The translations under genes were made by a program, and so were the position numbers. Under the pieces are notes generated by a model that was given only the letters and a program-made list of their open reading frames with translations, made no database searches and was not told where the DNA came from. DNA of 64,000 bases, from contig NC_089726.1 in assembly GCF_035083965.1 (NCBI RefSeq), positions 22,242,559 to 22,306,558 on the forward strand, given 5' to 3'. Below, in pieces: positions 42,801-45,800 of the stretch; within the stretch, counting starts at the first letter, position 1, and each line of letters starts with the position of its first letter. The DNA is from Branchiostoma lanceolatum (Eukaryota; Chordata; Leptocardii; Amphioxiformes; Branchiostomatidae).

Positions 42801-45800
42801 CCTCTGGGATAAAAAAAAGGGACTCTATATTGTTTGTAGGCATGTACATGTAGCATAAGACCATGGGTCTGTAATGTAAAAATCGGACCTGAACCCATGG
42901 CATATGTGTGCTAAAAAAGATTTTTTCCTGTTACATGTAAAATTGCATATTGGCATATATTTTACATGCAATTTGAAAACTACAATGCATGCGAAATTAT
43001 ATACAGTAAGTAATAACATTTATAAACACAAAAACAACAATGTTTTCATATTTTCCAAGTATATTTTCGCAATCTAAGGAAGGTTTAAGATGGTTTAAAA
43101 CAAAAAGGCGAGTATAAGCGAGAGATATCTTTTTCAAGTCCGGACTTGTTTCCAGATGTTTAGGTTTTATTGAACTTGAACCTAAACGTTAGGTCCAGTC
43201 CGGATCAGGTCCGGGTTTAAGGTACGCAGCACTATGCTGTATTAACAGATTCACATCGTTTTTAATGTGGCAGGATTAGAGTAGCCGGGAGAATTATAAC
43301 AGTTGATGTTACTTGTCTGATTGGATAAGACCTTGGTTCCCTGCAGATGAGAGTGATGAGGAGGATGAGGCGGTACCCAGGAGGAGGAGACGACTGGCCG
43401 AGAAGGCAGCCGAGGGGTTGGAGGGGGAGGATGAGGAGGTAGGGAAACGGCCACTCTTAAAATTCGCTCTGAAAACATCAGTTAGCATGTTAATTCTTAA
43501 CATGCTAACAAACATGTGTTAACCCTTTCCAAAACTTTCGCTTGATGAAAGATAATGTTGTTGATAGTTATGCAAAATCTCCGTTTTAAACCTCTTTGGC
43601 CACCTTTGTTTTTGAACACACAACTTTGTGCAATCGCTACAGCAGGGAGCTAGGACAGTGATAATGGTGTGTTCAGCGACAATACTCTTTTCCAAATGAC
43701 AGATTTAAGAATATACATGTATGTCATATAACGTCCTCCAAAATGTCTAGATTTAATTTATTTCTGTGTTTTTTTTCTTGACAAATGATAGATATTATAG
43801 AGAAAGATTTGTCAAGGATAGAGAGGGCTTCTCTGTGTTATTCTTTTATTCCTTCCTTCATTTCTTCCCTCCTCACAGATGATAGAGATTATAGAGAACT
43901 TGGAGGACATGAAGGGACAAACCTTCCTTCATTCCTTCCCTCCTTCTCACAGATACTAGTAGAGAATCTGGAGGACATGAAGGGGCACTCCATTTTATTT
44001 GTTCATTTGTTCCTTCATTTCTTCCCTCCTTCCCACAGATGATAGAGATTATAGAGAACCTTGAGGACATGAAGGGACAAACCTTCCTTCATTCCTTCCC
44101 TCCTTCTCACAGATACTAGTAGAGAACCTGAAGGACATGAAGGGGCACTCCATTTTATTTGTTCATTTGTTCCTTCATTTCTTCCCTCCTTCCCACAGAT
44201 GATAGAGATTATAGAGAACTTGGAGGACATGAAGGGACAAACCTTCCTTCATTCCTTCCCTCCTCACAGATACTAGTAGAGAACCTGGAGGACATGAAGG
44301 GGCACTCCATTTTATTTGTTCATTTGTTCCTTCATTTCTTCCCTCCTTCCCACAGATGATAGAGATTATAGAGAACCTTGAGGACATGAAGGGACAAACC
44401 TTCCTTCATTCCTTCCCTCCTTCTCACAGATACTAGTAGAGAACCTGGAGGACATGAAGGGGCACTCCATTTTATTTGTTCATTTGTTCCTTCATTTCTT
44501 CCCTCCTTCCCACAGATGATAGAGATTATAGAGAACCTTGAGGACATGAAGGGACAAACCTTCCTTCATTCCTTCCCTCCTTCTCACAGGTGATAGAGAA
44601 CCTGGAGGACATGAAGGGGCACTCCATTTTATTTGTTCATTTGTTCCTTCATTTCTTCCCTCCTTCCCACAGATGATAGAGATTATAGAGAACTTGGAGG
44701 ACATGAAGGGACAAACCTTCCTTCATTCCTTCCCTCCTTCTCACAGATACTAGTAGAGAACCTGGAGGACATGAAGGGGCACTCCATTTTATTTGTTCAT
44801 TTGTTCCTTCATTTCTTCCCTCCTTCCCACAGATGATAGAGATTATAGAGAACTTGGAGGACATGAAGGGACAAACCTTCCTTCATTCCTTCCCTCCTTC
44901 TCACAGATACTAGTAGAGAATCTGGAGGACATGAAGGGGCACTCCATTTTATTTGTTCATTTGTTCCTTCATTTCTTCCCTCCTTCTCACAGATGATAGA
45001 GAGTATAGAAAACCTGGAAGACATGAAGGGACAAACCTTCCTTCATTCCTTCCCTCCTTCTCACAGATACTAGTAGAGAATCTGGAGGACATGAAGGGGC
45101 ACTCCATTTTATTTGTTCATTTGTTCCTTCATTTCTTCCCTCCTTCCCACAGATGAAAGAGATTATAGAGAACTTGGAGGACATGAAGGGACAAACCTTC
45201 CTTCATTCCTTCCCTCCTTCTCACAGATACTAGTAGAGAATCTGGAGGACATGAAGGGGCACTCCATTTTATTTGTTCATTTGTTCCTTCATTTCTTCCC
45301 TCCTTCTCACAGATGATTGAGAGTATAGAGAACCTGGAGGACATGAAGGGACAAACCTTCCTTCATTCCTTCCCTCCTTCTCACAGATACTAGTGGAGGA
45401 CATGAAGGGGCACTCCATTTTATTTGTTCATTTGTTCCTTCACTTCTTCCCTCCTTCCCACAGATGATAGAGAGTATAGAGAACCTGGAGGACATGAAGG
45501 GGCACTCCGTGCGGGAGTGGGTTTCCATGGCGGCGCCACGCCTGGAGATCTACAACCGCTTCAAAAACTTCCTGCGCTCTTACTGCGACGAGACCGGCAA
45601 GAACGTCTACCGCGAGAAGATCAGGAAGATGTGCGAAAGTGAGTACAAAATTACTACAGTCGAGTACAGATTAAAGTTGAAAGAAATAACAGTACTATGA
45701 GTATGACATTTTCAGGATGGCAAGATTATTTCTGACTCAGTGCTGTTATTGGTAAATATGTAGATAAATAACATAACATACATTGTAATTTTGTACAGCA

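Follow-up and report, generated by a model that had tools for sequence, protein, structure and literature searches.

How is a single 3' splice site chosen when twenty copies of it, several of them identical in sequence, lie directly upstream in the same intron? This question is raised by the MCM2 gene of the lancelet Branchiostoma lanceolatum, which we analysed in a window of 64,000 nucleotides (assembly GCF_035083965.1, contig NC_089726.1, positions 22,242,559 to 22,306,558; coordinates below are those of the window), and in which one intron carries a tandem array made of the end of that intron joined to the start of the next exon. The array belongs to a described kind of element, the mirages of amphioxus, and is not new in kind; the value of the locus lies in how many identical decoys a core replication gene here provides. 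We consider it likely that this array is a near-neutral lancelet mirage, and that the last acceptor is taken by way of exon definition.

The initial annotation had described about 20 tandem copies of the acceptor and start of MCM2 exon 5, and this count stands: the segment 43700–45640 contains 21 CACAG acceptors, from 43879 to 45464, namely 20 decoys followed by the true site, and all 20 complete upstream copies are composed of a pyrimidine tract, CACAG and the exon start. Tandem Repeats Finder (TRF) run on the window reported a repeat at 43853–45501 (period 160, 10.4 copies, 96% matches, score 2997), with an alternative double unit of 317 bp (score 3018); run on the intron alone with the same settings it gave scores of 2928 and 2956, and the repeat was absent from all 20 shuffles of the intron in two-base blocks. 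The unit of about 160 bp first proposed agrees with the length of the dimers (151–160 bp), but its halves, thought to measure about 80 bp each, are unequal. The A half (71–74 bp) is composed of the tract, CACAG and then, in most copies, ATGATAGAGATTATAGAGAAC..GAGGACATGAAGGGACAAACC; the B half (77–86 bp) is composed of the tract, CACAG, in most copies ATACTAGTAGAGAA.CTGGAGGACATGAAGGGGCACTCC, and then an A+T-rich spacer. Nor does every half encode the peptide of the exon start, as had been thought: 7 of the 10 A copies spell it, but in the B copies the exon start is shortened by 6 nt (8/10), 9 nt (the copy B05) or 15 nt (the copy B10), and a B version is spelled by 7 of the 10. Exon positions 39, 42 and 43 are changed alike in all ten A copies, and eight of these copies have ATT in place of the exon's AGT, which is found in two A copies near the exon (44993 and 45313).

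The last unit continues unbroken into the true acceptor and exon at 45464. As the true exon has its start in common with A and GGGGCACTCC in common with B, both forms derive from such a boundary. At the other end, complete copies begin at 43853 and not at 43785, the start first assigned to the array, although a decayed copy that has lost its AG does lie there, at 43781–43804. This copy was matched when one dimer was compared by blastn with the array-masked window (24 bp, 91.7% identity, E 1.8e-4), and it marks an older upstream end of the array. The only other match of the dimer outside the array was 22 bp long (E 0.094). A mobile repeat was rejected as a candidate, the unit not being found elsewhere in the 64-kb window to which the search was confined.

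The dimers are near-identical, as initially noted, with a mean identity of 95.6% (range 90.0–99.4%). Identity is 95.8% among A halves and 95.3% among B halves, but 63.5% between A and B, which indicates that the dimers were amplified after A and B had diverged. Dimers 1–9 have average identities of 95.8–97.5% regardless of their spacing, and dimer 10, on the exon side, is 90.0–92.5% identical to the others, a pattern of a homogenised cluster with a divergent edge. This pattern is not perfect: divergence at the 5' edge is seen only as the decayed copy, dimer 1 not being divergent, and the inner dimer 5 is somewhat low too (92.5–96.9% to the other eight).

The attribution of the host gene to MCM2 was borne out. 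The 18 exons found, the one starting at 54161 being taken to end at 54316, join into a product of 889 aa with no internal stop, which is 95% identical over 100% of its length to MCM2 of B. floridae, the best among the matches listed (the best 120 of 2791 matches, from 8000 candidates scored). A solved MCM2 chain aligns to residues 10–888 of the product, and the exon that follows the array is alignable to solved MCM2 chains. The N-terminus of B. floridae MCM2 is unlike the start of the first exon found here, and the name exon 5, which we keep for convenience, holds if one coding exon, not placed here, precedes 41183. The intron that holds the array has the donor GAG/GTAGGG and the acceptor CACAG/ATGATA; without the array it would measure 443 nt, the other 16 introns measuring 230–1743 nt. 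When the last acceptor is used the authentic exon and its frame are intact, and the resulting protein junction matches MCM2 of all four animals aligned (B. floridae, acorn worm, frog and starfish). As a side observation, the B. floridae MCM2 record in UniRef, C3YAI9, deviates from our product near the junctions 47860/49604 (EIVSILGKRLLDGSLN) and 53673/54161 (QPVGSMSGVSMVRPVP), and the first deviating stretch is also unlike the three other animals aligned; these stretches may be gene-model errors in that record.

Table 1. Coordinates in the window of the MCM2 gene, its array-bearing intron and the parts of the array
Feature	Coordinates	Strand	Description
MCM2 gene	41183..56768	+	18 exons found; first coding exon upstream of 41183 not placed
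Array-holding MCM2 intron	43439..45463	+	2025 nt, exceeding the other 16 MCM2 introns found; phase 0
Decayed upstream exon-start copy	43781..43804	+	AG lost: ACAA for ACAG
Tandem array	43853..45434	+	Ten head-to-tail A/B dimers, 151–160 bp; 20 decoy 3' splice sites
Copy B05 CACAG/GTGATA	44585..44595	+	Decoy acceptor directly before donor-like GTGATA
True tract and CACAG	45435..45463	+	One base off 7/10 A decoys: TTCAC for TTCAT, C next to the −22 A
True exon	45464..45638	+	175 nt; MCM_N domain start (Pfam); donor GTGAGT at 45639

Decoys were initially expected to break MCM2 in most cases, and the result is stronger, as splicing to any of the 20 leads to a stop 25–29 codons past the junction. 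Joined to the exon 5 donor, decoys would give exons of 252–1760 nt, compared with 175 nt for the true exon and 75–220 nt across the 18 MCM2 exons found. Within the array, one of the 32 GT sites is donor-like (44590, in copy B05); it scores 6.9 with the full matrix built from the gene's 17 donors, whose own leave-one-out scores are 4.4–10.0, and none of the other 31 exceeds 0.8. Inside the array, an exon could thus be defined from no more than a handful of decoys that closely precede B05 (44356–44516). The A acceptor at 44516 and the B05 donor would bound a 74-nt exon, 44516–44589, with a stop after 25 codons, and each of the nine cassette forms that end at 44589 likewise runs into a stop 25–29 codons past the junction. 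On sequence grounds, the AG/GT of B05 could be a recursive site, or the 5' splice site of a 74-nt poison exon. A cluster of alternative or mutually exclusive exons was rejected on account of the single donor-like GT and of the stops reached from all 20 copies.

Local acceptor strength was also rejected as a sufficient discriminator, because 7 of the 20 decoys match the true site at every one of the 23 bases compared (20 in the intron, 3 in the exon). Over the same bases two decoys have one mismatch, nine have three mismatches and two are shifted by a 3-nt deletion. A small acceptor matrix, built from the gene's 16 other acceptors and not taken from a published splice-site program, scored the true site at 7.3 and the decoys at 5.6–11.6, with 9 of the 20 equal to or above the true site. 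The motif yTnAy, scanned from −55 to −12, is found at −42, −34 and −22 in the true site and in 9 of the 10 A decoys, at −31 and −19 in the first decoy (43879), and in the B decoys only at −22 (9/10) or −19 (1/10). The form TTCAC at −22 is unique to the true site, which might be read as a hint of a branch point.

The pattern of exon lengths favours exon definition, which would be the simplest remaining reason for the choice of the last acceptor. Exon definition has a limit of about 300 nt. Three points weigh against this explanation. The nearest decoys, at 45387 (252-nt exon) and 45313 (326 nt), exceed the normal exon size of the gene by little and are not barred by exon definition alone; the donor-like sequence of B05 could define one decoy exon of 74, 160 or 234 nt; and we infer the use of the last acceptor itself from the protein junction.

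In the scenario that we favour, the end of the MCM2 intron and the first 45 nt or so of the next exon would have been duplicated into a minisatellite, the duplicate would have split into the A and B forms, and the A/B dimer would then have been amplified to ten copies, kept alike by unequal exchange or conversion. The array would probably be close to neutral, tolerated because the last acceptor alone would pair with the exon 5 donor across an exon of normal size. Rare use of a decoy would yield a premature stop, and the transcript would probably be cleared by nonsense-mediated decay (NMD).

Of the explanations that compete with a near-neutral mirage, the one that survives best, although we hold it unlikely, is that the decoys or the 74-nt poison exon send some MCM2 transcripts to NMD, array length acting as a dosage dial. 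The stops reached from every decoy and cassette form, together with a B05 donor score that lies inside the range of the gene's own donors, are in its favour. But an AG/GT exists in only one of the ten B copies, where it is tied to a 3-bp deletion private to B05, and the changes of the copies (ATT for AGT in the A copies, deletions in 10/10 B copies) bear no sign of purposeful retention. Nothing in the sequence data analysed here supports an effect on MCM2 dosage. In addition, published mirages are reported or inferred to be harmless to splicing (PMC3087553, PMC3902484; these papers, like those below, are cited for the accessible part of their text). It is more doubtful still that turnover of the array has itself made a regulatory element, in which B05, as a recursive point or through the poison exon 44516–44589, would set the amount of MCM2 mRNA that survives NMD, with variation among individuals as the minisatellite mutates.

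An RNA structure could mask the decoys, the exon piece of each copy pairing with the tract of the next copy and the true site remaining open, but we give this little credence. Each of the 20 acceptors examined, which are the true site and all decoys except the first, has a hairpin ahead of it (−15.7 to −21.2 kcal/mol), and an 835-nt stretch folds better than 20/20 shuffles (z −5.97), but the fold of a single dimer is ordinary (z −1.32, 20 of 200 shuffles being as good). The hairpin of the true acceptor (−19.7) is weaker than those of 8 of the 19 decoys and stronger than those of 11 (ten B and one A). Through the single base in which it departs from the majority of A decoys, the true tract loses the pair that adjoins the −22 A, yet this A remains paired in the hairpin fold of the true site. 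Of the 21 sites, the true one has the most accessible final four intronic bases, alone or in a tie, when folded in either of the two larger windows, but not in the smallest; its tract is surpassed in openness by 8, 8 and 6 of the 10 A decoys in the three window sizes. Furthermore, another of the 18 MCM2 exons has a start that pairs just as strongly with the tract before it (0.75 at 52277 versus 0.71 here). RNA accessibility was thus rejected as a discriminator, the results obtained with three window sizes, hairpins, shuffles and other acceptors being mixed. No Rfam match was found at the gathering threshold in 41000–57000.

That the assembler expanded or mis-joined the array is improbable. Such arrays are usually collapsed, not expanded, by assemblers. 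The unit variants are several and interspersed (six distinct among the ten A copies and six among the ten B copies, B01 being identical to B07–B09 but different from B02–B06), and the surrounding MCM2 gene is intact. One mirage haplotype was nevertheless apparently mis-assembled in the B. floridae draft (PMC3087553). Finally, that the array is a reservoir of splice signals for new intron positions, as proposed for the globin mirages in a spare-signal model (PMC3087553), is very improbable, since the conserved protein junction uses no copy, although B05 shows that a donor-like sequence can arise in a copy.

At each of the 17 introns, the acceptor and donor boundaries were matched against the neighbouring intron sequence, with 30 shuffled versions of that intron as control. 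The acceptor of the array intron scored 107, and its shuffles reached 26 at most. Two of the other 16 acceptors were above their shuffles, 53968 (34 versus 20) and, marginally, 50740 (20 versus 17), as were two of the 17 donors, 55714 (32 versus 21) and, marginally, 41771 (24 versus 22). Position 53968 belongs to a 22-bp copy (53968–53989, two mismatches) of the acceptor and start of the exon 54161–54316, about 190 bp upstream in the intron, which is perhaps a decayed single mirage duplication. A 22-bp minisatellite, GGGATTGTACTGAAGTTGTACT, occupies 55681–55891 (9.6 copies), four bases past the donor of the MCM2 exon 55494–55676; this repeat abuts the 5' splice site, and no copied exon sequence was seen in it. 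A (GT)n microsatellite lies at 51076–51145, 18 bp past the MCM2 donor at 51058.

Elsewhere in the window, a protein encoded at 3666–4946 is 98% identical to B. lanceolatum LRRN2 and 88% identical to the corresponding protein of a B. floridae x B. japonicum record. Two further tandem repeats were observed: an A+T-rich 126-bp unit at 12141–12681 (4.3 copies), which includes a stretch of AATTATGCTAATGAGGACCTCATTTGCATAATTT resembling a palindrome and may derive from a transposon, and a 20-bp minisatellite at 21855–22520 (33.3 copies) with three open frames on the minus strand. An open frame of 206 aa at 13631–14251, also on the minus strand, resembles by eye what we take to be part of the reverse transcriptase of a non-LTR (long terminal repeat) retrotransposon.

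Models of splice sites assign scores from the surrounding sequence, and here seven decoys equal the true acceptor over the 23 bases compared. With identical decoys among 20 that lie within 1.6 kb of the true site, the locus amounts to a natural experiment on how distance, scanning and exon definition act. Splice-site choice is an old question, which these identical decoys make easy to test, as the outcome can be read by RNA-seq. The MCM2 array also bears on the tolerance of mirage arrays and on whether mirages seed new introns.

The literature among the matches listed included neither a mirage in MCM2 nor a survey of mirages across a genome, and mirages are not mentioned in the accessible part of PMC2206037. 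Two further systems resemble the array in part. In Drosophila, proto-splice sites duplicated in tandem gave rise to novel introns, and NMD may buffer the premature stops (PMC2891723); the tandem copying of splice signals is common to both cases, but the Drosophila duplication occurs in coding sequence and creates a new intron, whereas the MCM2 array lies inside an existing intron and the protein shows no new junction. In the lancelet gene VCBP3, introns next to coding exons contain copies of those exons, whole or in part, and canonical splice sites are present in some of the copies (PMC2632668), an arrangement like that of MCM2; unlike the MCM2 array, these copies are not called a minisatellite in the accessible text of that paper, in which the underlying data are not shown.

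Mirages proper are minisatellites that span exon–intron boundaries, known from several lancelet genes (PMC3087553, PMC3902484). The four of their characteristics that could be tested are all found here: a cephalochordate gene as host, splice signals and exon start in every complete copy, an authentic exon left intact, and homogenised copies with divergent ones at the edge. PGBD5 (60- and 108-bp repeats) and troponin C are among the known cases, accurate mRNA being reported for Adh and troponin C and inferred for PGBD5 (PMC3902484); unlike the MCM2 array, PGBD5 has imperfect copies in small number, a 108-bp triplication being mentioned (PMC3902484). The earlier case of Adh3, with units of 10–72 bp, shows length and somatic instability, according to PMC3087553. 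Copied mirage signals could act as cryptic sites, but the Adh3 data and reverse transcription-PCR on globin genes suggest that regular splicing is undisturbed (PMC3087553). The mirage of the globin gene BflGb6 has units of 150–160 bp, six and three of them in two haplotypes, and copies the splice signal and exon start at the 3' end of an intron; BflGb9 also has a mirage (PMC3087553). Like those of Adh3, BflGb6 and BflGb9, the MCM2 array repeats in tandem an intron end and the 5' part of an exon, with the splice signals copied, the true exon intact and the units alike, and its dimer is close in length to the BflGb6 unit. It differs from BflGb6 by its 20 decoys in ten dimers, and from the globin mirages by a dimer that carries two acceptors and by its host gene, and thus adds to the mirages a housekeeping gene with more copies than in the globin cases (PMC3087553).
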